Program-made: the position numbers and the translations under genes
In this document: piece by piece, positions 23,359 through 39,037 of the stretch
How positions within the stretch are numbered: the first letter of the stretch is position 1
Layout: the number at the start of each line of letters is the position of its first letter
Notes under the pieces: generated by a model
Told to the model about the DNA's origin: nothing
Database searches by the model: none
The model's input: the letters and a program-made list of their open reading frames with translations, nothing else
NCBI GenBank assembly: GCA_012511955.1
Contig: JAAZFC010000009.1
Location: forward strand, 1-39,037
Direction of reading: 5' to 3'
Origin: Fibrobacter sp.
GTDB lineage: Bacteria; Fibrobacterota; Fibrobacteria; Fibrobacterales; Fibrobacteraceae
Length of the DNA stretch: 39,037 nucleotides

Positions 23359-23416
23359 AGCGCTTAAATCTAGAAATTTGTAAATTAGTTAGGGATTTTA
23401 TGTTTTGGACTTTAAA

Positions 23417-26203
23417 ATGATTAAAAAATCTCTGCTTTTAGGGTGGATTTTGCTTTTGTCAAATTGCATGCTTTTTGGCGATCGTGATTATTTTGTTTTA
23501 AAAGGTCCCCAGATGATAGCCTGTGATAAAGGGTATGTAAGTTACTTGGGGCATTCCAAAGCCTTAGAGGTTACAGACCATGAATTTCCTGCTACCCAAG
23601 CCGTACTAAATTACAACTTTTCCCTTTCTAAAGCAGAAATAACCCAAGGGGAATTTTTAGAATTTATGGGTTATAATCCCGTTCCCGAAGAAGACAGGCA
23701 ATATGGGGAAAATAAACCGGTGGTTTATGTAAGTTGGTATGATGCTGCGTTGTTTTGCAATGCTTTGTCCAAAATAAACGAGCTAGATACCGTTTATATT
23801 TATAGTGGGGTTTCTCCAGAGGGTGTTTTAGAGAATTTAGAAACAGATTTTAGTAAAGCTGGTTTTAGGCTACCCACAGAAGCAGAGTGGAATGTTGCCG
23901 CTGGTGCCTCGGAAACAAACATTTATCCATGGGGTTCAGACACAAGTCTTGCCAGGCACTTTGCCAATTTTTTCCCTCATTCCAACGGAAAATTACAAGA
24001 TGTTTGCACAAACAAAAGTACCGACCACGGATTTTGTGACTTAGCCGGTAATGCCCTAGAATGGACCCAAGATTGGCTGTGGAAACTACCAGGTTTTTAT
24101 GTGCCTAATTTTTTAGGTGGTTTAGGTGAAGATGAAAATACTGATAAAGTGGTGAAAGGCGGGTCATTTCAACATGGATTACGTCAACTTCGCAATTCCA
24201 TGCGCACCGATAATTACTTTTCTCCTCCTTATCAAAAAACTGAATACATAGGTTTTAGGGTGGCGAGAGGTATTATAGAAGAAGGCAGTTACAATAGTGA
24301 AATGGGGCAAGTGGTTCACGGCATTTCCACAGTAAAAATGCTTCCCAAAGCCCAAGAAATTCGCAACTTTTTCAAAACCCGCAGCGTTAAGCTAGTGGCA
24401 ATTGATGCTCTGGAAGATAAATTAGTACGCATCGAATTTCGACGCCATGGAATGTTTACGCCTCTGCAGGATTCTGTGATAATTCGTCATCCCGAAATTT
24501 CCCCCGATGGTCGCTTTATCGCTTATGCCAATCGCAGTGAAGGGCAAGGGGGTGAACTCAATGTGGGAATGATTACTTTCAATTCTATAGACACTAAACA
24601 AGCGCGGAAAATAGAAGGAGTGGGAATGCCTCGCTGGTATATGGATGGGCATGAATTATCTTTGATTATTGTAGATAATATTCAAAACAATCAAGACTCA
24701 GTGACTTGGTTAGAGCACAAGACTGTAAATAATGCATTTAGACATGGATATTTTAGCAAAATCACCACAAATCCCATAGAATTAAATGGGGCTTATCATT
24801 CTGGGTTTAGCAGTGACTTAAATTTTTTTGCCTCAGGTTATACTCGCCTACGAGTGCTGGATCGTGCTAAAAACAAGTTAAATACTTATTTCACTTATCC
24901 ACAAAATGGTAAGGATAAAAATGCCTCTATTCAGGTTTGCAATGTTTCTATATCCAAAGGCGAAAAACCCGAAATCGCCTTTATAGACTTTGGCTATGCA
25001 CAAAAAAGTTCCATTGTGGGTAAAAGCTATGGTATTCACGAAGTTATTTTCTTAATGGATCCCGCTACTGGTGAAATCAATGATTATATTCCCCCTCCCA
25101 AAGGTTATGCAGGGTGGAACTACCCCGAATGGAGCAATCATCCCGATTATTTGGTGGCCACTGCTTTTGACAAAAGTGATGCTAATACGGCGGTTTTTGC
25201 CATTAGGCGCAGCGATAAGCAAGTTTTACAACTATTGAGTGGCGATGAAATCACCATGCCTCAACTCTGGATAGATCCCAATGCTTTAGATGAAAATTGG
25301 GAATTCTACTGGGATACAGCTTTTCATTACAGTGAGCCTGCGGATAATATAAATCGTTTTTATATGGAACAAAAGTTTTTACGGGCCTTGGAAAATCGTG
25401 AAAAAGTGCATACTCTAGCCATAGGCACTTCGCGTTTAGAAAATGCTATGAGTGTGACTCAAATGGCTGGAACTGATAGTGGCACAGTAATAAATATGTC
25501 TTTTCCTGGGGGAGTGCCCAGTTTTGCTGCGTTTATCATGGAAAAATATGTGCATCCTCAGCTTTTTCCTGAAGTAAAACATCTGATTATAGATTTAGGC
25601 TTAGAGTTTTTTGCCTCAAATGCCTACGAAGAAGCCATACTATTTCCGTCTTTGGGCTACCAATATGACACCATTCATCAATTTTATGCTCAAGGTATTA
25701 GTGCTAGTCAAGACAGCGCTCTGCAAAATCGCATTAATGAATTGTCAACTATGCAAATAGTTAAGGATTATAATCTTTATGGAGATCGAATAGATCCTGG
25801 CTATAAGATTTGTCATGGTTGGGGCGACTTGCTCTATGATATAGATACGGATTGGGGGGCAGATGGGTTTTGGAAAAGTAATTTTAAGCTATTTAAGCAA
25901 GCTGTGCAAGCCATGGAAAAAATGGATATACAAGTTTACGGCGTGGTTTTCCCCCAACATCCAGGTTATGCAGAAACAGAATATTATGGTCGCCATGGCG
26001 GAGATAAAGACAAAATCGCTGCTTTGGTGGATAGTTTAAATACGCTAGTTGAATCCACTAGTAATTTTCAATGGAAAGATTTAAACAAAAATGGCAAACA
26101 TAAATACTCTGAAAAGTACTTCGCCGACGCCGACCACCTTTGTTTCACTGGAGCTATGGCGATCACCGATGAAATCCAAGATTGGATAGAAAAGTCCAAA
26201 TAA
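23417..26203 (+). CDS. Fibrobacter paralogous lipoprotein (TIGR02171-like) with FGE/sulfatase-modifying domain
   Basis: A predicted lipoprotein with signal MIKKSLLLGWILLLSNC, lipobox LSNC and Cys17. Residues about 50-290 form a formylglycine-generating-enzyme-like domain (SKAEITQGEFLEFMGY, VVYVSWYDAALFCNALS, FRLPTEAEWNVAAG, DLAGNALEWTQDW, VVKGGSF, YIGFRVARG). The middle (about 350-630) reads like TolB-type propeller strands (HPEISPDGRFIAYAN). The C-terminal part has IGTSRL and DADHLCFTGA, placed like blocks I and V of SGNH hydrolases. The order and length match the roughly 900-residue lipoprotein family described from Fibrobacter succinogenes; function is unknown. A TTG at 23405 with AGGGA nine bases upstream is a real alternative start, and the signal peptide works with either. 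Confidence 0.85.
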   Translation: MIKKSLLLGWILLLSNCMLFGDRDYFVLKGPQMIACDKGYVSYLGHSKALEVTDHEFPATQAVLNYNFSLSKAEITQGEFLEFMGYNPVPEEDRQYGENKPVVYVSWYDAALFCNALSKINELDTVYIYSGVSPEGVLENLETDFSKAGFRLPTEAEWNVAAGASETNIYPWGSDTSLARHFANFFPHSNGKLQDVCTNKSTDHGFCDLAGNALEWTQDWLWKLPGFYVPNFLGGLGEDENTDKVVKGGSFQHGLRQLRNSMRTDNYFSPPYQKTEYIGFRVARGIIEEGSYNSEMGQVVHGISTVKMLPKAQEIRNFFKTRSVKLVAIDALEDKLVRIEFRRHGMFTPLQDSVIIRHPEISPDGRFIAYANRSEGQGGELNVGMITFNSIDTKQARKIEGVGMPRWYMDGHELSLIIVDNIQNNQDSVTWLEHKTVNNAFRHGYFSKITTNPIELNGAYHSGFSSDLNFFASGYTRLRVLDRAKNKLNTYFTYPQNGKDKNASIQVCNVSISKGEKPEIAFIDFGYAQKSSIVGKSYGIHEVIFLMDPATGEINDYIPPPKGYAGWNYPEWSNHPDYLVATAFDKSDANTAVFAIRRSDKQVLQLLSGDEITMPQLWIDPNALDENWEFYWDTAFHYSEPADNINRFYMEQKFLRALENREKVHTLAIGTSRLENAMSVTQMAGTDSGTVINMSFPGGVPSFAAFIMEKYVHPQLFPEVKHLIIDLGLEFFASNAYEEAILFPSLGYQYDTIHQFYAQGISASQDSALQNRINELSTMQIVKDYNLYGDRIDPGYKICHGWGDLLYDIDTDWGADGFWKSNFKLFKQAVQAMEKMDIQVYGVVFPQHPGYAETEYYGRHGGDKDKIAALVDSLNTLVESTSNFQWKDLNKNGKHKYSEKYFADADHLCFTGAMAITDEIQDWIEKSK

Positions 26204-27070: not shown

Positions 27071-30000
27071 GTGTTTGGTAGAAACTTAAATTTAAGTAAA
27101 ATTTGGAGCATCATACTTGTATGCTCAGCATTTGTTTTTGCTCAAAAAACAGTGCATTTTTTTAGTCCTTGGACCAGTGATCCAGTCCGATCTAATTATA
27201 CCATGTACATACAAGGCCAAGATAATGCTGGTTTTAATAGTTGGTGGCCTGGGGCAATTATGAATAATGTAGGGGGAGGATGGTACTCTTACACTTTTAA
27301 TGCAACAAATGGTATTCAGTTTAGAATTATGAATGCTACTGACGGCAATGTAAGCAACCAACTGTATATTACACCTGATGGTGTTTCTCCAAATCAGAGT
27401 AATTTTACCAACATCCCCCAATTTCAAGAATCTGATGATATTTACTTATATGTAGAAGGTGAGCAAGTCATAATCACTACAACTCCTCCCCATGCTCAAT
27501 ATTTAATGGTTTTGTCTCCTTATGTATCAGCACCTTTGTTGGAAATTGAAGGACAGACCGGCAAAAGGGCTATGATAGCTGTGGATAAACCTTGTGGTTG
27601 GTATGCTGTGCCTTTTTTAAATACCGATGATTTATCTGTGCGTTTAGTTAATAACAAAGGGGAATACTATGGTGCAGAAGGGTTGGGGAATGCAGATTAT
27701 ATTTCATTAGCTGAGCAATTTGTTGGTAAAGATACCGTTTGGCTTTCTACTCACTCCAACTTGCCTACTTTGCACGACGAATGGAATCATCAAGAAGGGC
27801 GTTGTGCTATTTTGCGTCTAGCCTCATATATACGAGATTTTCCCTCGGATAAAAGTCATCCCGACTTTGAAGCCGCTGGGGAAGGATGGTCTAATCCCAC
27901 TTGTAATGAAAATGGAACTAAGGGCATGGTGGCTAGTCATTTAGGTCCCGATCGCAAACCAATTAAAGCCCGTGATGCTTGTAATAATAGTCGTTTTGAC
28001 GAATGGTTTGGCAGAGCACCTGGGAATTACTTTACGGGTTGCTTAGAGCTAGATTTGTCCCTCAATGCCGATGGAAACTATGAAAAACGAGATGATAGCT
28101 TTTTCCCCTTAGATCAGATAGGTAAAGAATATGGCAATGATTACAATGGAATGGGGGTGGATCGCTCTCCTAATGATAGCATACATCAACATAACTTTGG
28201 CTTTTGTATGGAAACCCACGCCAAATTTACCTATAAAGGTACCGAAGTCTTTACCTTTAAAGGCGATGACGATGTATGGGTGTTTATAAATGATTCCCTA
28301 GTGGTGGATTTGGGTGGAGTTCATGAAGCTTTAGAGGCTACCGTGGATTTATCTACCTTGGGCTTAACCGTGGGTGAAGTTTATAATTTTGACTTTTTCT
28401 TTTGCGAACGACAATCCACAGCATCGCACATGTGGATTACCACAGATATTGACTTAGTGGAAGAACAAAGTATTATACTCGATAGAGAGGTTATAGAAAA
28501 TGATGGAGTGATTGCTTTTCGCTATTCTGTTTGGTTAAACACCATTGGTGGCATAGGTTGTCAAACCGAAAATGAAACTGACAAAATGCCTGCCTTGTTT
28601 GAGCTACAAAAGCGAGGTGAAAACTCTCGAGTAGAGTTGGGTCCAGGTGCTCATTACGGGGGAGGAATTTTTATTGCCCCCACTCGTGACACTGTTAGCG
28701 TAGATACCACGAAGATGGAAGGCTTAGAATATGCGACGACTTATATTCTTTATATCATAAATCCTTATGAGCCTTCCGTTTATGATTCTCTTTTAATACG
28801 CACCCCTGGAGCTCCTGCCCCCAATAATCCTCCAGTAATACATTCCGATAGCTTTAGCATTTCAGAAGACGCTGAAATTGGTACCATTGTAGGAGTTCTA
28901 AGAGCTACCGACGAAGATGGCGACCCTTTAACATGGAATTTATTACCTAAGGAGTATTTTGACATAGATCAGCTTGGCCGTATTACTGTTAAAAAGGAAC
29001 TCAATTGGAAAAGTTATCAATCCCATTCGATTCAAGTTTTAGTGAATGATCATGAAGACACTACTACAGCTGATGTTTATATTGAGATTATTAGGGTGGT
29101 GAGGCCTATTGATGTAACCATTGTGGATATATCGTCGGGGGATTCTACCTGGCCTCGCAAAGATACGCTTTTTATCAATGTAAAAGATGTAGATATCAAT
29201 GCGCACATAGATGGTTCAGATTATCCCAATCCTAAAGACACTTCTGTTCACGCCAAATTAGTTGATGGGCCTAACAAAATAGGTATTTTGATATGCTCGC
29301 CTGATGATCCCAATGTTTGTGGCACTGATAGCATTGTTGTAATGATAAATACCCAAGTACCTGCAATAGTTTGGGACACGGTTAAGCCCGATACTTCAGG
29401 TCTAAAAAACTTGGTTTATAAATATATACCTAGCGATACCGTCTTTATAAATAACCCAAAAACTGTTTTAAAAGGACAACTAACATACATAGATAAAAGA
29501 CTTAAAGAAGAAAAGTTGCAATTGCCTTTTCCTTTAGAGGTTTTCAATTTAAAAGAAGGTTTCCATAGCATCCCCTTTAGTTGGACCGATGATTTTGGTA
29601 ATACTGTCTATGATACCCTAAAAATATATTTGGACTTAACTCCACCTAAAGTGAAGATTGTGTCTCCTGAAAACAATGACATTTTTACAGTTTACAATGT
29701 AGATGTAGAATGGACTGTGGATGAAGTAACTATGGACACTTTGCTGCGAGCCTCTTTAAATGAGGGTACCAATTCCATAATTCGTTTAGCTATGGATAGA
29801 GCGGGTAACTTAGGATCAGATACGGTTTGGGTGGTACTTAAAGAAGAAAAAAATAACGCTAAAATCGATATTGTAAAGCCAATTACTAAACTAAAACCAG
29901 ACGAAGTAAATGAGTATTTCAGCAAAAATCCTCCACACAAAGATGGCCGTTATGTGGTAACTATTTACGATTATGAAAAAGAACAAGAAGTAGAAGTAGG

Positions 30001-30586
30001 GTGGGGAAATAAAGATAAATCTTTTGTCACAAAAGGTAATGATAGGGTATATGGAACCAATGGTACTAGTTATGTAGGACCAACTTTGCGCATTGAGATG
30101 CGCTTCCAGCATGTGGGGGGCTTAGATGGTGAAGGTAACCCCAGGGGTGGCACAGTAGCTGATTTGCTAGAATGGGCAGAAAGCGAAGGTATAGAGCCTA
30201 GTAAAGCATTGTGCGGAGAGCCTATACCTGCTGACCCTTATGAAACTCCTTTATGGAAAAATAGCGTGTTTATTGAGGCGCAAATTTTTGACCAAATGGG
30301 GCAATATATTAATCGTTACAAGATAAATATTGACTCCATATCATCTAATCATCTTAATGATGGTGGAGTTGCGGAGTTTTACTTTAGCTTGACCCCTGAC
30401 CAACAAACAAAACAGATAAAAGATTATCGCGGACGAGACATCGCAACAGGACCATATATAGTTCGCACCCATGTGCGAGGTGAGTCCACTTATCTATGGT
30501 GTGCTGGGCAACACTCTAAGGGTGAAAAAGTCAAAACCAGCGAAACAATTTTACGGAATTTTGGATATAGGCGCTTGGAAAGATAA
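27071..30586 (+). CDS. Secreted fibro-slime domain protein with cadherin-like repeats
   Basis: A 1171-residue exported protein. The signal peptide (SKIWSIILVCSAFVFAQ) ends near residue 25. An aromatic-rich beta domain follows (about 26-110), with starch-binding-like traits. The fibro-slime domain (about 245-465, TIGR02148) contains DDSFFPLDQIG, FGFCMETHAKFTY and FKGDDDVWVFINDSLVVDLG, the PA14-like calcium-site pattern. A cadherin-like repeat lies at about 585-680 (ISEDAEIGTIVGVLRATD), Ig-like repeats follow to about 940, and the C-terminal module starts near 1003 (GPTLRIEMRFQHVGG). That module is shared with the next gene. Fibro-slime proteins are known surface proteins of Fibrobacter and slime moulds; a role in adhesion is inference. 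It starts at GTG, with TGGGGGA just upstream. Confidence 0.88.
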   Translation: MFGRNLNLSKIWSIILVCSAFVFAQKTVHFFSPWTSDPVRSNYTMYIQGQDNAGFNSWWPGAIMNNVGGGWYSYTFNATNGIQFRIMNATDGNVSNQLYITPDGVSPNQSNFTNIPQFQESDDIYLYVEGEQVIITTTPPHAQYLMVLSPYVSAPLLEIEGQTGKRAMIAVDKPCGWYAVPFLNTDDLSVRLVNNKGEYYGAEGLGNADYISLAEQFVGKDTVWLSTHSNLPTLHDEWNHQEGRCAILRLASYIRDFPSDKSHPDFEAAGEGWSNPTCNENGTKGMVASHLGPDRKPIKARDACNNSRFDEWFGRAPGNYFTGCLELDLSLNADGNYEKRDDSFFPLDQIGKEYGNDYNGMGVDRSPNDSIHQHNFGFCMETHAKFTYKGTEVFTFKGDDDVWVFINDSLVVDLGGVHEALEATVDLSTLGLTVGEVYNFDFFFCERQSTASHMWITTDIDLVEEQSIILDREVIENDGVIAFRYSVWLNTIGGIGCQTENETDKMPALFELQKRGENSRVELGPGAHYGGGIFIAPTRDTVSVDTTKMEGLEYATTYILYIINPYEPSVYDSLLIRTPGAPAPNNPPVIHSDSFSISEDAEIGTIVGVLRATDEDGDPLTWNLLPKEYFDIDQLGRITVKKELNWKSYQSHSIQVLVNDHEDTTTADVYIEIIRVVRPIDVTIVDISSGDSTWPRKDTLFINVKDVDINAHIDGSDYPNPKDTSVHAKLVDGPNKIGILICSPDDPNVCGTDSIVVMINTQVPAIVWDTVKPDTSGLKNLVYKYIPSDTVFINNPKTVLKGQLTYIDKRLKEEKLQLPFPLEVFNLKEGFHSIPFSWTDDFGNTVYDTLKIYLDLTPPKVKIVSPENNDIFTVYNVDVEWTVDEVTMDTLLRASLNEGTNSIIRLAMDRAGNLGSDTVWVVLKEEKNNAKIDIVKPITKLKPDEVNEYFSKNPPHKDGRYVVTIYDYEKEQEVEVGWGNKDKSFVTKGNDRVYGTNGTSYVGPTLRIEMRFQHVGGLDGEGNPRGGTVADLLEWAESEGIEPSKALCGEPIPADPYETPLWKNSVFIEAQIFDQMGQYINRYKINIDSISSNHLNDGGVAEFYFSLTPDQQTKQIKDYRGRDIATGPYIVRTHVRGESTYLWCAGQHSKGEKVKTSETILRNFGYRRLER

Positions 30587-30603
30587 ATGTTTTTTGTAAA
30601 AGT

Positions 30604-30633
30604 TTGTAAAAAATAAAATTCTTGTTATATTAT
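30604..30633 (+). promoter_or_regulatory. Predicted promoter of the second giant surface protein
   Basis: TTGTAA (30604-30609) and TATTAT (30628-30633) are 18 bases apart; TATACT at 30631 is an alternative -10. The word TTGTAAA occurs twice here (30596 and 30604) and again upstream of the third paralogue. Confidence 0.4.
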
Positions 30634-30662
30634 ACTAGGGATAAAAAAAAGGGATAGGGTTA

Positions 30663-30678
30663 CCTTGTAAATGCAAGG
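30663..30678 (+). promoter_or_regulatory. Leader hairpin before the second giant surface protein
   Basis: CCTTG (30663-30667) and CAAGG (30674-30678) can pair around a 6-base loop in the transcribed leader, 25 bases before the start codon at 30704. The stem does not mask the ribosome binding site GAGGGA. It may affect mRNA stability; no known riboswitch pattern fits. Confidence 0.25.
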
Positions 30679-30703
30679 CTAACATTTAAATGAGGGATTG
30701 GTT

Positions 30704-33700
30704 ATGGGATACAGAGTACCACACTCTTTATTGGTGCTTTTGTTTGCATTATTTTTTGCGGCAAACAATGCTTTTGCTCAGGGCTTTGGCGATGAAGCTG
30801 GCATGAGTCAAATAGATGAAGGTTTACTTAAATTTGGTCTTTATGGTCGCGATAGCGTATTTATAGGTTATGACGCTAAAACTGCAGATTCTGGAGCTAT
30901 TGGTGGTGCCAATATTGCCATAGAGATGGGGTCTGTTTTGCGGGGCGATGTTTTTGCAAGCAATGACTTGTTTGCTGCCCCTGGCAGGAATTCTTATACT
31001 TTAAGTGGTGATGTTGTCGTGGGAGGAGACCTACGGCTAGGCAACGAGCTAAAAGTTCTAAAAAATCTTTATGTCCAAGGCGATATGAATGTGCAAGGGT
31101 ATGGTTCGGGACCAGTTGTTATTTCAGGGCAAACTCGCGTAGGTGGAAAAGTTAGCATAGGAAACAGCAACCAGTTTAGGGGCGGAATGCAATTAGCACA
31201 AGGATCCATACATACCAATTCAGATCACTTTAGCAACTATTTTGGTACTCCCGCAGTGGCATTAAAGGCCTTTGTTTTGAGCTCCGGCGTACACAATGCT
31301 CCACAGTTAGCCTGGAACACTCCTTTTTCTATGCCCGCTCATTTAACCCCTATGAACTATGCTGTTCCTAGCACTAAAGTTTTTCCAACTAACAATAATT
31401 GCATAGTAACGCAAAATAGTTGGTGGAAATCTGGAGATTGTGTTCCCAATGGAGAAGTCGCGGTGGCTCCCAATGGCGCACAAGTTTTACCCCCTGGCAG
31501 CTACGGCGAATTGCATTTAAATCACGAGTCTAAGATCGTTTTGGGAGAAGGTATTTATCATTTTTCTTCTATAACTATGAACGGAACTAATCACCAAATA
31601 AAGGTATATCAACCCACTGGTGCACGCACGCAAATATTGGTAGAGGGGAAGGTTGAATTTCTCTATAGAAGTTCTTTGATGCCTTTAGATACAGCGGGAA
31701 ACAAAGGTGGAACTATTTTACTTTACACTAACGATGAAAATGAATTGAAAATAGGACAAGAAAATGAAATATGGGCCACTTTAGTAGCTCCTAAAGCCAT
31801 TATAAATTTAGTGTATGGGACAAAGTTGTTTGGGCAAGCCTTGGCACAAAAGATTTATGCAGCGCAAAACTTTGAAGGCAACGATGGTCGTTATATTCCT
31901 TTTTACCCTACTAAACCTAGAATTGGGTTAGTCTTTTCCCAGGGCGCATTGGTTACCGAAGGTAGCGGAGGCGGAACCAAAGTTTTCCCTCTCAAGTTTT
32001 CCATGGATCATGAAAACGGTTTACCAGTTACGGTGTTTTTTCACACTGAATTTCGCAGGCCGGCAAAACCAGGTAACGCAGATGCTGAGGATATTAATTT
32101 AATCGTTAAGGATTCAGTGGTGTCTCCTGTGGCAATAACCGAAATCAATTATAAAAAGCTGATTATTAATTCCGACAATGATTTTGAATTAGATGATTAT
32201 TTTGATCTAGTTTTAGATAGCGTAATTAATGGGGAATTAGATAGCATTGCAACAAATAATGTTTATGCTTTGGGTATCAAAAATGATGACCCTCCACCAC
32301 AAATGAGCTTTGTGGGCGACAAAGTTTTGACGGTGAATGAAGATGCGGGCACTATAAAATTAACTGTCAAGCTAAATGCTAAGTCGATTTTAGCTTCAAC
32401 GGCGCAAATAGTAGTACAGAGCAGTGTGGGGGTGTTAAAGTATGATATTCCCAAAACCATTAGCGTAGGCGCTGGTGAAACAAGCATAAGTTTTAGTTTG
32501 GTTATTCATGATGACTTTATAGATGCTCCAGATGAGACTTTAAAGTTGATTTTACGCACTGCAAATAGTGCTACTTTAACCATCGGAGCTGATTCTGTTA
32601 AAACCATTGTGGTAAAAGACAATGCTCCTCCTGTGAAGTTAGCGGCTAATATGCAAACAGAGTTTACTGTAAATGAACCTAGTAGCGGCAAAACTACTTT
32701 GAAAATCCCTATAGTTTTAGCAGGAGTTTCTGGTTGGGACATTCCTTGGGCATTAAAAGTATTGCCTGGAAGTGGTGATAATCATGCGGTTTTAGATGAA
32801 GATTATCGCATTGTAAAAATCAATGGGAAAATTAATGCGGGGCAATTAACTGATACAGCAATTGTAGAGGTACTTAGCGATATATGGGACGAAGGTGATG
32901 AACAATTTACTTTAACTTTTGATACCCAAGCAGGGAAAACAAATTATTTGGATTTTAGCGGGAAAAACTCTTTTGTGATTACCATCCCTCGCAATGGTGG
33001 ACCCAGTTTGGACGATGTTACTGTTGACTTAAACGAAGACGCACCACTGGGTGCAGATGTGCTTTATTTGAGTGAAATTTTAAATCGCCGTGATACGGTA
33101 ATTGCTTATAACTGGAGTATTGTTAATACTCTGAATGGCGCTTCTTTTGCCCTAAAAGAAAAATCAGGCAAAGGGTTGGTGCTTGAGTTAGCTGACAATA
33201 CGGGCATGGAATACAGACCAGGAATGCCTGATTTCAAAGTCCAATTAGAAGTTTGCAGTAAGTTTAATTGCGCCACAGGTGTGGTAACTGTGCAAATTGT
33301 AAATACCCGCAAAGCTCCTCAGATAGTACCCATGGATACTATTAATATCATAGAAAACTCCACTGGTGGTACTAAAGTTGATTCTCTGAATGTAAAGTCT
33401 GGCTCAGGTTGGGACTTAGTTTGGGATATTATTGGTGGCGAAGGAGCGGAAAACTACGATATTAATCCTGAAACAGGTGTTATAGAGGTAAAGCCAGGAG
33501 CTGATTTGGACTACGAAAATGAAAAAAGCCGTCATCAATTATTGAAAATTCAAGTAACCAATGCCCATGGGATGTCTGATACTTTATGGGTTGTAGTAGA
33601 GCTAGAAGATGAAATAGAATATTCTTTTGCTAAAATAGATTTTGCCCAAATTCCTGAAGGTCAAAAGTTTAATAACCCCGATACAATATGGTTAAATGTC

Positions 33701-35089
33701 GATAGTTTAGATATAGAGTGGGTGTTTGATCAGGGAGATTCGGCAGAAACTGTTGGCTTTGATAAAGATGGTGTGATTAACATCGTGCGTACTTATTGTG
33801 CCCCCACTAAAAACTTTTGCGGAAGTGATACTTTGGTGGTAAGGCGTAACACTAAAGAGCCTCAGCTAGTTTGGGAAAAAGACGATATCATTGTTGATTT
33901 GCCTCGCCATACAGTGCAAGTCCCACGGGACAGTAATGATACGCGCATATACACCAATGACCCCCAAAAGGTGTTAGAGGGCTTGTTGAGTTATGTGGAT
34001 TCTACTGGGAAATTAGTTGATATTCCCATTGACCTTAGCACTAAACTTAAAGAAGGAAAAGATGTAGAAGTGATTTATACTTTCACGGATCCTTACGGTA
34101 ATGCTATCAATGATACTTTAGTTATTCACCTTGATACTATTCCCCCAGAGGTTAAAATCTTTAATCCAGAACATCACAAAGAGTTTTGGATTTACAATGT
34201 GGATGTAGGCTGGACTGTTGATGGGGTGATAATGGACACATTAAACAGAGCTAGTTTAGATAAAGGGATTAATATTATCCGACGCAGTTATATGGATTTA
34301 GCTGGTAATATTGGCTCTGACTCGGTGGAAGTTATTTTAAACAACAATAAAAGCGATGCTGAAATAGATATAGTAAACCCCATGGTAACTTTAGATCCTG
34401 AAAGTATTGATAAATTAAATCAAGAGTTTCCTCCTCGCCCAGATGAAAACTTTAGTTTTAAAGTTGTAAATCAGCAGACTTTAGAAGAAGAAGAGTTACA
34501 ATGGGGTAAGCCAGGACAAGTTGAGGTTCCCAAAAAAGATGAACGCCGAGTTTATAACGGCTTAGTTAATTCTAATATTGGACCTACTTTGCGTGTAGAA
34601 ATTCGTTTTCAGCATGTGGGTGGAACAAATGGTGAGGGTTTACCAAGAGGTGGAACCTTAGCAGATTTATTTGAAAAAATGCGAGCTGATGGTGTGGATG
34701 AATCTAAAGCTTTGTGTGGTGAGTCTATGCCTGCAGATCCATATAATACACCTTTGTGGCGCAATGATATTCACTTAGTTGTAGATTATTTCGATAATCT
34801 TGGACAGTTTGTAGATAGGTTTGTGGTAGAACAAGATTCTATAAGTCATGAATACTTAAATGATGGTGGAGTTGGAATCTTTTACTTTACTATTGAGCCT
34901 GACAAAATTGATAAAAGGTTGAGAACAACTACTGGCCGAGCTTTAGCAAATGGACCTTATGTTATAAAAAGCATGGTTACGGCTAAATCCACTGATTTAT
35001 GGTGCGCAGGAAATCATAAGAAGGGTGAAGTGATAAAAACCAACAATTCAGAAATTAAATTGTTTGGTTATAGACGTTCTTTACCTTAA
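30704..35089 (+). CDS. Giant secreted surface protein with beta-helix-like N-terminus, Calx-beta and cadherin-like repeats
   Basis: A 1461-residue exported protein. After the signal peptide (ALFFAANNAFAQ) comes FGDEAGMSQIDEGLLKFGLY. Then follows a glycine-rich right-handed-helix-like region (about 60-400) with LPPGSYGELHLN, GEGIYHFSSITMNG and ATLVAPKAIINLVYGTKLFG, the pattern seen in DUF7305/PilX-like and polymer-forming surface proteins. Three Calx-beta-like repeats (about 416-765; DDFIDAPDETLKLIL, DIWDEGDEQFTLTFD), a cadherin-like repeat (ENSTGGTKVDSLNVKSGSG) and Ig-like repeats follow. The same 168-residue C-terminal module closes it (from about 1293). I chose ATG 30704, with GAGGGA six bases upstream, over TTG 30698. 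It is paralogous to the next gene along nearly its whole visible length. A structural or adhesive surface role is inferred. Confidence 0.85.
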   Translation: MGYRVPHSLLVLLFALFFAANNAFAQGFGDEAGMSQIDEGLLKFGLYGRDSVFIGYDAKTADSGAIGGANIAIEMGSVLRGDVFASNDLFAAPGRNSYTLSGDVVVGGDLRLGNELKVLKNLYVQGDMNVQGYGSGPVVISGQTRVGGKVSIGNSNQFRGGMQLAQGSIHTNSDHFSNYFGTPAVALKAFVLSSGVHNAPQLAWNTPFSMPAHLTPMNYAVPSTKVFPTNNNCIVTQNSWWKSGDCVPNGEVAVAPNGAQVLPPGSYGELHLNHESKIVLGEGIYHFSSITMNGTNHQIKVYQPTGARTQILVEGKVEFLYRSSLMPLDTAGNKGGTILLYTNDENELKIGQENEIWATLVAPKAIINLVYGTKLFGQALAQKIYAAQNFEGNDGRYIPFYPTKPRIGLVFSQGALVTEGSGGGTKVFPLKFSMDHENGLPVTVFFHTEFRRPAKPGNADAEDINLIVKDSVVSPVAITEINYKKLIINSDNDFELDDYFDLVLDSVINGELDSIATNNVYALGIKNDDPPPQMSFVGDKVLTVNEDAGTIKLTVKLNAKSILASTAQIVVQSSVGVLKYDIPKTISVGAGETSISFSLVIHDDFIDAPDETLKLILRTANSATLTIGADSVKTIVVKDNAPPVKLAANMQTEFTVNEPSSGKTTLKIPIVLAGVSGWDIPWALKVLPGSGDNHAVLDEDYRIVKINGKINAGQLTDTAIVEVLSDIWDEGDEQFTLTFDTQAGKTNYLDFSGKNSFVITIPRNGGPSLDDVTVDLNEDAPLGADVLYLSEILNRRDTVIAYNWSIVNTLNGASFALKEKSGKGLVLELADNTGMEYRPGMPDFKVQLEVCSKFNCATGVVTVQIVNTRKAPQIVPMDTINIIENSTGGTKVDSLNVKSGSGWDLVWDIIGGEGAENYDINPETGVIEVKPGADLDYENEKSRHQLLKIQVTNAHGMSDTLWVVVELEDEIEYSFAKIDFAQIPEGQKFNNPDTIWLNVDSLDIEWVFDQGDSAETVGFDKDGVINIVRTYCAPTKNFCGSDTLVVRRNTKEPQLVWEKDDIIVDLPRHTVQVPRDSNDTRIYTNDPQKVLEGLLSYVDSTGKLVDIPIDLSTKLKEGKDVEVIYTFTDPYGNAINDTLVIHLDTIPPEVKIFNPEHHKEFWIYNVDVGWTVDGVIMDTLNRASLDKGINIIRRSYMDLAGNIGSDSVEVILNNNKSDAEIDIVNPMVTLDPESIDKLNQEFPPRPDENFSFKVVNQQTLEEEELQWGKPGQVEVPKKDERRVYNGLVNSNIGPTLRVEIRFQHVGGTNGEGLPRGGTLADLFEKMRADGVDESKALCGESMPADPYNTPLWRNDIHLVVDYFDNLGQFVDRFVVEQDSISHEYLNDGGVGIFYFTIEPDKIDKRLRTTTGRALANGPYVIKSMVTAKSTDLWCAGNHKKGEVIKTNNSEIKLFGYRRSLP

Positions 35090-35267: not shown

Positions 35268-35318
35268 TAAGCTTGATTTTGAGTTAGGATATTCCATTTG
35301 TACAGTGGAGGTGTGAAT

Positions 35319-38300
35319 ATGAATGAATTATTAATACTTAAAAAACAAAAAATATCACAATATACACACAAGCTCTTTATTGCTGTTTTATTTGTGTTTT
35401 TTTCGGCAACTTCGTTGTTACATGCTCAAGGTTTCGGTGAAGATGCAGGCATTGGCATGAGCACCATTGATGAAGGTTTATTGAAATTTGGTCTTTATGG
35501 GCACGATAGCGTTTTTATTGGTTACGAAGCCAAAACTGCGGATTCTGGAGTGGTGGGGGGTGGAGTTGTTGAACTAGAACAAGGTAGTGTTATTCGCGGG
35601 GATCTTTATTCTTTTGGTGATTTAGTAACCAATGGCAATAAGAATTACCAAGTGTTTAATGGTGACTTGGTGGTGTTAGGAGATGCCTACTTAAATGATG
35701 GTTTTCAAGTCGATGGCTCTTTTTATGTCCAAGGCGATTTGCGTATTGGTGGAGCTAGCAAAGCCAATATTATAGAGGGCAGTACCCATGTGGGGGAGCT
35801 TTTTTCCATGGCTTATAGCAACGAATTTAAAGGAGGAGTTGTTGTCGCTCAAGATTCTATCATAACTACTTCGGATTATTCTGCTAATTTTTTTGGTACG
35901 CCTCCTGTGGAGCTAAGGGCTTTTGTGCTGCGCTCTGGGGTGCATAGCGCTCCGCAGTTGCTTTGGAGCACACCTTTTACTATGCCTGAGCATTTTGACA
36001 CCAAAGCTTATGATGTTCCCACCACTGTTGTCAATCCTGGCACGAATAATATAACAGTTTTGCAAGATGTATCTTGGGATGCCACCATGGGTAGTGAACC
36101 CATTAACGGGGTAAAAATTGCTCCCAATGGTAATCAAGTGTTGCCTCCAGGGAGCTATGGGCACTTAAAAATGGAATATAATTCAGAGCTTGCCCTTGGA
36201 GAAGGTATATATCACTTTGCTTCCATAGACATGGCTGCTACTCTGTTAAATGTTAAAGTCTATCAACCCAATGGGGGGCGCACGCAAATTTTGGTTGAGG
36301 GTGATATTACTTTGGGGCATAAAAATAATATAATGCCTTACGATACAGTGGGTAACAAGGGTGGAACTATTTTAATTTATTCCAATGGGAAACTAACCAT
36401 TGGGCAAGAAAATGAAATTTGGGCTACTTTAATTGCCCCTAATGCTACTTTGGATATGACCTATTATCCTAAATTATTTGGTCAAGCCTTTGCAAAAGTG
36501 ATTGTAGCACCGCAATATTTTGAAGGCAACGATGGCCGTTATGTACCTTTTTACCCGGCTAAACCTAAGATTGGCTTAGCTTTTGCTGAAGGTAATTTAG
36601 TCCCTGAAGGAAGCGGTGGCGGAACCAAAATTTTTCCCCTTACATTTTCATTGGAACACGAAAACGGTTTGCCCGTAACCGTATATTTTCATACTGAGTT
36701 TCGCAGTCCTGCAGGGCCAGGACATGCTGATGCCGATGATATTAACTTGATCGCCAAAGATTCGGTGATGTTTGAGCCAGGAGAAACCAAAGTTGTTTAT
36801 GATAAACTGCTTATTAATAAAGACGATGATTTTGAGTTAGATGATTATTTCGATTTAATTTTAGATAGTGTTGTAAACGCAGAGCTAGATAGCATTGCCG
36901 AAAACAATATCTATTCTCTAGGCATAGAAAACGATGACCCCGCCCCAGAAATGAATTTTGCGGATCCCGATGACTTGCTTGTAGATGAAGCAGTGGGAAG
37001 CATAAACTTAGCTGTGAAGTTAACTAACAAGTCAGTATTGGAGTCTGTGGCGGAAATAGTGGTGCAAAGCAAGGTGGGAATACTAACTTATCAAGTCCCC
37101 GACTCGGTGAGTGTGCTCGCCGGGGAAACTGAAAGCTATTTTGTGCTCACCATTGACGATGATCTAATCGACGCACCCGACGATACCTTGTTGGTTATAT
37201 TGCGCACCACCAATGCTCTTACTTTGACCATTGGGGCTGATTCTGTAAAGACTATAATTGTTACAGATAATGACCCCTCGGTTAAGCTTTCCGAAACCAT
37301 GCTCACCGATTTTGTGGTGGAAGAACCTTTTGAAGGTGCAACAACTTTAAAAATCCCACTGGTTTTAGCTGGTGTTTCTGGTTGGGATATTCCTTGGGCT
37401 TTAAAAGTATTGCCTGGGAGTGGAGCAACTCATGCTACTTTAGATGAAGATTACAGAATTGTTAAAGCCAATGGCAAAATATTGGCAGGCCAGCTCAGCG
37501 ACACTATAATCGTAGAAGTGCTTAGCGATATTTGGGATGAAGGTGACGAGTCTTTTGTGTTAGAATTTGATCCTGTGGCAGGAAAAACTGAGCATTTGGA
37601 CTACAGCGGTAAAAAGGATATCGTGGTAACTATACCCCGCAATGGCGGGCCAAATTTAACAGATATTACCATAGAGCTTAATGCTCAAGCTCCTGAGGGT
37701 GCCGATGTATTGTTTTTGCGTGAAATATTTAATCGCCGCGATACTGTCATTGAGTATAATTGGAACATTTTGCCTGGAGATAATGCACATAATTTTGCCA
37801 TTAAAAATAAACCAGGCAAAGCTTGGGTTTTAGAAGTTTTTGATAAATCTGACATTGATTTTGTCCCCGGAATGGCTCCTTTTAAATTAGATGTTGAGGT
37901 TTGTAGCGAATTTAATTGCGATACGAGTCTAATAACTATTGAAATAACAAATATCATAAGAACCCCTGAAATTATTGTTGGAGATACCATGTATGTACAT
38001 GAAAACTCCCCTGGAGGAACCAAGGTTGACTCCTTAGATGTTAAGTCTGGTTCAGGGTGGGATTTAGTTTGGGAAGTTATAGGCGGCACAGGAGTTACGG
38101 ACTATATTATAGATCCTGAGACTGGCATAGTATTAGTAAAAGAAGGGGCTGATTTAGATTATGAAAATGAACAAAGTCGCACTCAAACTTTGCAGATAAG
38201 AGTTACCAATTCCCATGATAGATCTGATACGGTGTGGGTGGTAATTAATCTCATAGATGTGCTTGAATACTCCACAATAAATATTGATGTAGCCACTATT

Positions 38301-39037
38301 CCAGGAGGGAAAAGCTACACTAATCCCGATACTTTGTGGGTTAATAGCGATAGTTTAGATATAGAGTGGAGTTATGACCGCGGTGATTCTGCAGAAACCA
38401 TTGGCTTTGCTAAAGATGGCGTGTTTCCAATTATTCGTAAGTATTGTAATCCCACAAAAAACTTCTGCGCAAGTGACACTTTGGTTATAAGGCGCAATAC
38501 TAAATTACCAGTTGTCATTTGGGAAAACGATGAAAAAGATGAAGATTTGCCTAAAAACACCGTGGTTATGCCTCGAGATAGTGGTGATACGCGGATTTAC
38601 ACCAATGATCCCCAAAAGATTTTGCCAGGCACTACCCAATATATTGATTCTGCTGGTAATTTGGTGTCCATAGATGTCAAAGCAGCTCCTAAGCTTAAGG
38701 AAGGCAAAGATGTAAAAGTGATATATACATTCACTGACCCTTACGGTAATCAAGTGAGTGATACCCTTGTGTTTCATTTGGATACAACTCCGCCAGTGGT
38801 AAAAATATTTGATCCTATAAATGAAGAAAGCTTTTGGGTTTACAATATAGATGTGGGTTGGAAAGTTGATGGAGTTATTATGGATACTTTAAACAGAGCC
38901 AGTTTAAATAAAGGAGTAAACATTATTAGGCGAAGCTATATGGATTTGGCTGGCAATATTGGATCCGATTCCGTTACTGTGATACTAAGCCCAACCAGGC
39001 CCGATGTAGCTATTGATTTGGTTAAGCCTTTGATTAC
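35319..39037 (+). CDS. Third giant secreted surface protein, paralogue of the preceding gene (3' end outside window)
   Basis: An open frame of 1239 codons runs off the end of the window without a stop. GTGGAGG lies seven bases before the ATG. The signal peptide (KLFIAVLFVFFSATSLLHAQ) is followed by the shared start STIDEGLLKFGLYGHDSVFI, a beta-helix-like region (LPPGSYGHLKMEY, GEGIYHFASIDM, TLIAPNATLDMTYYPKLFG), Calx-beta-like repeats (DDLIDAPDDTLLVIL, DIWDEGDESFVLEFD), a cadherin-like repeat (ENSPGGTKVDSLDVKSGSG) and Ig-like repeats. It matches the preceding protein over its whole visible length. The visible part stops at the point matching about residue 1221 of that protein, so some 240 residues are missing, probably including the C-terminal module. 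Confidence 0.88.
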   Translation, partial: MNELLILKKQKISQYTHKLFIAVLFVFFSATSLLHAQGFGEDAGIGMSTIDEGLLKFGLYGHDSVFIGYEAKTADSGVVGGGVVELEQGSVIRGDLYSFGDLVTNGNKNYQVFNGDLVVLGDAYLNDGFQVDGSFYVQGDLRIGGASKANIIEGSTHVGELFSMAYSNEFKGGVVVAQDSIITTSDYSANFFGTPPVELRAFVLRSGVHSAPQLLWSTPFTMPEHFDTKAYDVPTTVVNPGTNNITVLQDVSWDATMGSEPINGVKIAPNGNQVLPPGSYGHLKMEYNSELALGEGIYHFASIDMAATLLNVKVYQPNGGRTQILVEGDITLGHKNNIMPYDTVGNKGGTILIYSNGKLTIGQENEIWATLIAPNATLDMTYYPKLFGQAFAKVIVAPQYFEGNDGRYVPFYPAKPKIGLAFAEGNLVPEGSGGGTKIFPLTFSLEHENGLPVTVYFHTEFRSPAGPGHADADDINLIAKDSVMFEPGETKVVYDKLLINKDDDFELDDYFDLILDSVVNAELDSIAENNIYSLGIENDDPAPEMNFADPDDLLVDEAVGSINLAVKLTNKSVLESVAEIVVQSKVGILTYQVPDSVSVLAGETESYFVLTIDDDLIDAPDDTLLVILRTTNALTLTIGADSVKTIIVTDNDPSVKLSETMLTDFVVEEPFEGATTLKIPLVLAGVSGWDIPWALKVLPGSGATHATLDEDYRIVKANGKILAGQLSDTIIVEVLSDIWDEGDESFVLEFDPVAGKTEHLDYSGKKDIVVTIPRNGGPNLTDITIELNAQAPEGADVLFLREIFNRRDTVIEYNWNILPGDNAHNFAIKNKPGKAWVLEVFDKSDIDFVPGMAPFKLDVEVCSEFNCDTSLITIEITNIIRTPEIIVGDTMYVHENSPGGTKVDSLDVKSGSGWDLVWEVIGGTGVTDYIIDPETGIVLVKEGADLDYENEQSRTQTLQIRVTNSHDRSDTVWVVINLIDVLEYSTINIDVATIPGGKSYTNPDTLWVNSDSLDIEWSYDRGDSAETIGFAKDGVFPIIRKYCNPTKNFCASDTLVIRRNTKLPVVIWENDEKDEDLPKNTVVMPRDSGDTRIYTNDPQKILPGTTQYIDSAGNLVSIDVKAAPKLKEGKDVKVIYTFTDPYGNQVSDTLVFHLDTTPPVVKIFDPINEESFWVYNIDVGWKVDGVIMDTLNRASLNKGVNIIRRSYMDLAGNIGSDSVTVILSPTRPDVAIDLVKPLI

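Follow-up and report, generated by a model that had tools for sequence, protein, structure and literature searches.

What function is served by the ends that two giant surface proteins, encoded side by side in a Fibrobacter-like bacterium, have in common? The two proteins, hereafter w1 and w2, are encoded on contig C77 of a Fibrobacterota assembly 2.68 Mb in size, and the window referred to throughout is the whole 39,037-nucleotide stretch of this contig. w1 (27071..30586, plus strand) is a fibro-slime giant surface protein of 1171 amino acids, its open frame matching TIGR02148 (E=1.3e-37) and also carrying PA14 and cadherin-like domains; w2 (30698..35089, plus strand) is an open frame of 1463 amino acids, likewise a giant surface protein, with weak cadherin-like and Calx-beta matches. 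Both end in the same module, which we consider to be quite probably a divergent, disulfide-stabilised C-terminal domain (CTD) of the type IX secretion system (T9SS). This reading draws on the extreme C-terminal position of the module, its distribution, the unrelated cargo to which it is attached, its kinship to the profiles of T9SS CTDs and the presence of the secretion machinery; secretion itself we infer.

From the motif GPTLR to the stop codon, the module comprises exactly 169 residues in both proteins (residues 1003-1171 of w1, at 30077..30583, and residues 1295-1463 of w2, at 34580..35086, both on the plus strand), and PRGGT, LCGE, DPY, DSIS, LNDGGV, GR, GPY, LWCAG and FGYRR stand at identical offsets, with an identity of ~53% over the module. 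The original prediction, made from the sequence of this locus, had proposed a module of equal length in the two proteins; the equality stands, at 169 residues rather than 168 and with a start in w2 at residue 1295 rather than 1293, and the motifs that it named are all in register. It had also held that the two proteins differ completely at the N-terminus, which is borne out for roughly the first 585 residues of w1 and the first 870 of w2 only. The homology is larger than the module, extending from it back through the cadherin/immunoglobulin (Ig)-like part over ~600 columns at 39% identity (BLASTP, E=6e-117; w1 587-1168, at 28829..30574, and w2 874-1460, at 33317..35077, plus strand). Given this E-value and the ~53% identity of the modules, a chance resemblance of the two ends is ruled out.

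A module search followed by a profile search brought the number of module proteins in the window's genome to 12, and it became apparent that the core of the family, to which both the w1 and the w2 module belong by profile, is smaller than the 169-residue form. It consists of (I/V)x(V/I)xxFDxLGQFV, a variable loop, a strand in which W is frequent, the strand GR..GTGxY and, last, a basic strand that ends in (F/W)GxxR. GPTLR, PRGGT and KALCGE, earlier put forward as hallmarks of the module, are confined to the w1/w2 subfamily and differ from this family-wide core. The module profile matches 142 of the 168 Fibrobacterota genomes: all 111 of the window's family, both genomes of its order, 11 of the 13 in the rest of the class and 18 of the 42 outside the class, where the matches are mostly weak. 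In 40 of 40 distinct loci, a sample taken from the best matches that covers many genera and two distinct subfamilies, the module lies 0-32 residues from the stop, and among the more distant Fibrobacterota matches it is terminal in all 30 loci. The C-terminal placement put forward in the original prediction thus holds at every locus checked, and no internal copies were seen among them. The two subfamilies match each other by hhalign at 98.4%, and the basic character of the tail is general, with an isoelectric point of 9 or above in 26 of 27 members. Five loci (L032, L036, L037, L045 and L048) have in addition a lysine-rich low-complexity tail of ~25 residues beyond FGYRR.

The proteins that carry the module are diverse. 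Eleven of the 12 in the window's genome are complete, being w1, w2 and a further nine from other contigs, and a contig end truncates the twelfth. Full-length reading and domain scans give carriers of 890-2144 amino acids. Five of them are fibro-slime proteins and two are GH9 cellulases in which Ig-like and fn3-like domains also occur; cadherin-repeat proteins are likewise among them. Judged by eye, the N-termini of all 11 complete carriers are hydrophobic and end in AxA-Q-like sites; the corresponding Sec signal peptides of w1 (27071..27142, plus strand) and w2 (30698..30778, plus strand) read MFGRNLNLSKIWSIILVCSAFVFA and ...LLVLLFALFFAANNAFA respectively, each followed by Q. The fibro-slime domain of w1 lies at 28187..28456 (plus strand, profile match to TIGR02148), and its association with the module is a common one: when fibro-slime and module matches were paired by contig and open frame in four genomes, each from a different genus, the module was found at the end of 21 of the 25 fibro-slime proteins (5/5, 8/10, 4/4 and 4/6). 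At G000:C88:2750-10984 (L068), two tandem fibro-slime proteins, both with frames of 1349 amino acids, are both module-ended. None of the 11 carriers scanned with Pfam has a match to PF18962, the type A domain of T9SS cargo, and the module therefore stands in place of a type A CTD in these proteins. The same genome has at least 21 PF18962 matches on other proteins, and type A CTDs are present in 167 of the 168 Fibrobacterota genomes.

To which known domains is the module related? No Pfam or NCBIfam model was above cut-off in the 27 module members, and on this ground we rejected the possibility that it is a domain already known to these collections; nor is it, as far as their models go, identical to a named sorting domain. 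PF18962 matches none of the 27 members and TIGR04183 a single one, below cut-off; the type B models TIGR04131/PF13585 match none of them, FlgD_ig (PF13860) finds no member of this tight family at E up to 1, and a sequence search against solved structures returned no homologue. Comparison of profiles places the family as follows. Aligned by hhalign against 16 C-terminal FlgD_ig/PorU/type A domains taken from Fibrobacterota, the module gives a probability of 91.8%, with E=7.5e-7 and a score of 40.7, the signal being carried by the PorU/FlgD_ig subset (score 44.7). Column-shuffled controls reach at most 16.0 (60 shuffles), 15.4 (150 shuffles of the target) and 14.0 (40 shuffles of the query), and the remaining controls score 10.7 (reversed), 10.1 (upstream Ig), 11.7 (cadherin) and 20.9 (FlgD hook cap). 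Against a set of intermediates, drawn from its own matches in the more distant Fibrobacterota, the module profile gives 99.25% with E=5.8e-20. Among 27 such intermediates, 9 match NF033707 PorU (best 9e-11), 8 PorZ and 7 TIGR04183 (best 1.8e-7) in NCBIfam, and 9 match PF13860 FlgD_ig (best 1.7e-6), 3 PF18962 and 1 CHU_C (1.7e-5) in Pfam. As the intermediates match both the module and the models of T9SS CTDs, the module is joined to the latter through them. The FlgD-Ig/T9SS affinity noted in the original prediction is supported by these results at the level of sequence profiles, and the kinship that emerges from the wider comparison with T9SS CTDs is to those of the FlgD_ig/PorU type.

Machinery for such a signal is present. 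All 168 Fibrobacterota genomes encode SprA, the T9SS translocon, against none of 14 control genomes. A homologue of PorU is encoded in the window's genome (E=1.6e-100; its 335.8 bits fall short of the curated cut-off, 420), and the PorV family is above cut-off in all four genomes tested. Several PorV-family proteins occur in each of G000, G106, G145 and G044, which could mean that separate shuttles serve separate kinds of CTD. Type B CTDs have a cognate shuttle gene of the PorP/SprF family, usually adjacent; a search with PF11751 (PorP/SprF) gave no match in the window's genome, though the controls gave no match either.

A further feature, the cysteines, recurs across the family. Exactly two are present in the last 170 residues of 22 of the 27 members, and two members have none. 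In the w1/w2 subfamily they are spaced ~96-99 residues apart (in LCGE and LWCAG), and in the other subfamily mostly ~9. The two conserved cysteines of the original prediction are in this sense a recurrent pair, and such a pair fits a disulfide in an exported domain, a compatibility that falls short of proof.

If the module is a T9SS CTD, the following sequence of events can be envisaged. Sec would export the module-bearing protein to the periplasm, where the T9SS, by way of the SprA translocon and a PorV-family shuttle, would recognise the folded C-terminal domain with its FDxxGQFV strand, its GR..GTGxY strand and its basic (F/W)GxxR end. The large N-terminal adhesin or cellulase would then cross the outer membrane and remain attached to the cell surface. 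Two fates of the module after transport may be considered, removal by PorU, as for type A, or retention as an anchor, as for type B. Recognition, translocation and any subsequent cleavage or retention are all putative steps. The role in secretion or anchoring given to the module by the original prediction is accordingly favoured by its terminal position, by its unrelated secreted carriers, by genomes that encode SprA and by the kinship to FlgD_ig/PorU domains, with secretion itself as the predicted part.

Several results weigh against the T9SS reading. No T9SS or FlgD_ig cut-off is reached in the tight family, where the best weak scores, in one member each, are 0.011 for NF033707 PorU and 0.048 for TIGR04183; the comparison by hhalign with six canonical type A CTDs alone yields a score of 15.3, which is not significant; and FlgD_ig is not specific to the T9SS, being found in the flagellar hook cap as well. 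The co-occurrence of module and SprA is not discriminating, because SprA is found in every genome searched, and in the window's genome the SprA frame (L070, G000:C1:14000-26000, minus strand) is interrupted by a TGA that follows residue 1757 of ~2282 and may be an assembly error, a real truncation or a recoding. The predicted structures belong on this side too. C-terminal sorting domains of the T9SS are seven-stranded Ig-like sandwiches; two AlphaFold runs on four sequences gave beta-sandwich models of low confidence (predicted local distance difference test, pLDDT, 60.9 and 66.7), and Foldseek with these models returned nothing at E <= 0.001, only generic Ig sandwiches. Foldseek does list FlgD (7eha, 7bhq, 3osv) and PorU (6za2), at E 0.07-0.33, but neither stands out, and the top rows of VIA-align (factor XIII, transglutaminase and GH2 Ig domains, with Z up to 8.2) are likewise Ig sandwiches of a generic kind. 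The fold comparison, resting as it does on low-pLDDT models, was left out of the support for the T9SS reading.

It might be argued that the module serves as an end domain of structural or adhesive function, capping an Ig stalk or binding the cell wall, the outer membrane or partners such as an OmpA/TPR complex, with no role in recognition for secretion. This would be in keeping with a w1/w2 homology that runs on into the upstream Ig/cadherin stalk, with the inserted helices and loops beyond a compact Ig core in the AlphaFold model of the 169-residue form, and with the generic outcome of the fold search, but the module is terminal in 70 of 70 loci, its core and last strand are also found on stalk-free cargo (GH9 and fibro-slime proteins), and its profile is akin to the PorU, PorZ and TIGR04183 CTDs. 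We regard an end domain of this kind as improbable. Very improbable indeed is plain gene duplication, under which w1, w2 and a third gene, w3, would be tandem paralogues with common ends and the module would have no separate identity. The three giant genes do lie in tandem, all on the plus strand; w1 and w2 share their 600 residues of homology; w3 (35298..39035, plus strand), whose open frame runs into the end of the contig immediately before the place where the module would be expected, shows 62% identity to w2 over residues 44-1246; and in another Fibrobacterota genome, Loclat_bin-05108 (L022), an adjoining fibro-slime protein and giant partner, both module-bearing, are syntenic with w1/w2. 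Duplication covers w1-w3 only, however, and as a complete account it is refuted by the core's presence on at least nine additional, otherwise dissimilar proteins from the genome's other contigs and by its spread throughout the class.

Within the T9SS reading, what kind of CTD would the module be? In Bacteroidota, CTDs are divided into types A, B and C, and a type B signal has to exceed 200 residues and relies on a PorP/SprF shuttle (PMC10202324, PMC12618676); BTD/FPm-1 of Fibrobacter succinogenes has been proposed as a T9SS signal of the TIGR04183 type (PMC6851124). One view would be that the module is an ordinary type A CTD (PF18962/TIGR04183), too diverged for current models, handled by PorV and PorU and cleaved, with nothing distinct in its function. 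Like type A domains it is C-terminal, basic and borne by Fibrobacterota surface enzymes with signal peptides, some intermediates match TIGR04183 and PF18962, and PorU and PorV-family proteins are present. Against this, the module forms a tight family without a type A match above cut-off or significant alignment to type A domains alone; at about twice the ~70-90 residues of type A it is longer, with a disulfide-like cysteine pair and an (F/W)GxxR end; the same genome has typical type A domains on other proteins; and its cargo of fibro-slime and GH9 giants differs from the hemicellulases and GH5/GH8 enzymes described for type A (PMC6851124). A divergent type A domain therefore seems to us rather unlikely.

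In its length and its giant-adhesin cargo, the module resembles type B (TIGR04131/PF13585 CHU_C), whose CHU_C model matches one intermediate, but no family member matches type B models, and in sequence the core is nearer to the CTD of PorU. With the CTDs of PorU and PorZ and with C-terminal FlgD_ig-like domains (PF13860), it shares an order of motifs, namely an (I/V)x(I/V)(F/Y)DxxGxxV strand, a W(D/N) strand, a GR/G..(A/G)xGxY strand and a basic terminal strand, and an hhalign match of 91.8-93.5% (controls at most 21 bits). It differs from the PorU/PorZ CTD in the 169 residues of w1/w2, the large loop that separates the first core strand from the second, the cysteine pair and the (F/W)GxxR end, and, unlike the CTD of PorU, is found on adhesins and cellulases rather than on a sortase. 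The Ig domain of the FlgD hook cap follows the same superfamily pattern, and FlgD structures appear in the Foldseek lists (E ~0.07-0.3), but its profile match is weaker (score 21 vs 45) and FlgD works in the flagellar hook, not at the ends of adhesins. A flgD domain on a fibro-slime protein in a termite Fibrobacteres genome has been interpreted as flagellar (PMC4704652); it may rather be a CTD of the module's kind. We tentatively entertain, as a possibility short of an even chance, that the module represents a further class of T9SS CTD beside A, B and C, specific to Fibrobacteria, dedicated to cellulose attachment through fibro-slime and GH9 proteins, served by its own PorV-family shuttle and kept as an uncleaved anchor.

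The surroundings of the giant genes are as follows. Contig C23 begins with an open frame and was tried as the continuation of w3, but the aligned parts fail to join and it was rejected. Upstream, at 23405-26203, lies a gene for a 932-residue protein with an FGE-sulfatase domain and a weak match to DUF1574; the FGE-sulfatase fold is reused in the T9SS proteins GldK/PorK (PMC12421860). The start of the contig (5-9850) is occupied by a defence island, which encodes the methyltransferase and specificity subunits of type I restriction-modification, a protein with a SIR2 domain that matches Dsr1 (PADLOC score 1162), a UvrD helicase of the GajB type and an AAA ATPase that matches HEC-01A.

The literature searched, consisting of open-licence papers, contains no description of the module. 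Judged by its sequence, it is a Fibrobacteria-specific, T9SS-like CTD, unnamed in Pfam and NCBIfam, on most of the fibro-slime adhesins examined. Fibro-slime proteins are central to models of Fibrobacter adhesion (PMC3079729, PMC4668043), and how Fibrobacter attaches to cellulose and strips it without a cellulosome is a long-standing question. In the same literature, T9SS cargo in the phylum has been recognised solely through TIGR04183/BTD (PMC6851124, PMC4814513). If the module is indeed a second T9SS tag, carried by 21 of the 25 fibro-slime proteins as well as by some GH9 cellulases, the list of T9SS cargo for the phylum would be an undercount, and adhesion to cellulose would be predicted to depend on SprA by way of the module. 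The module profile also offers a means of listing surface proteins in uncultured Fibrobacterota.

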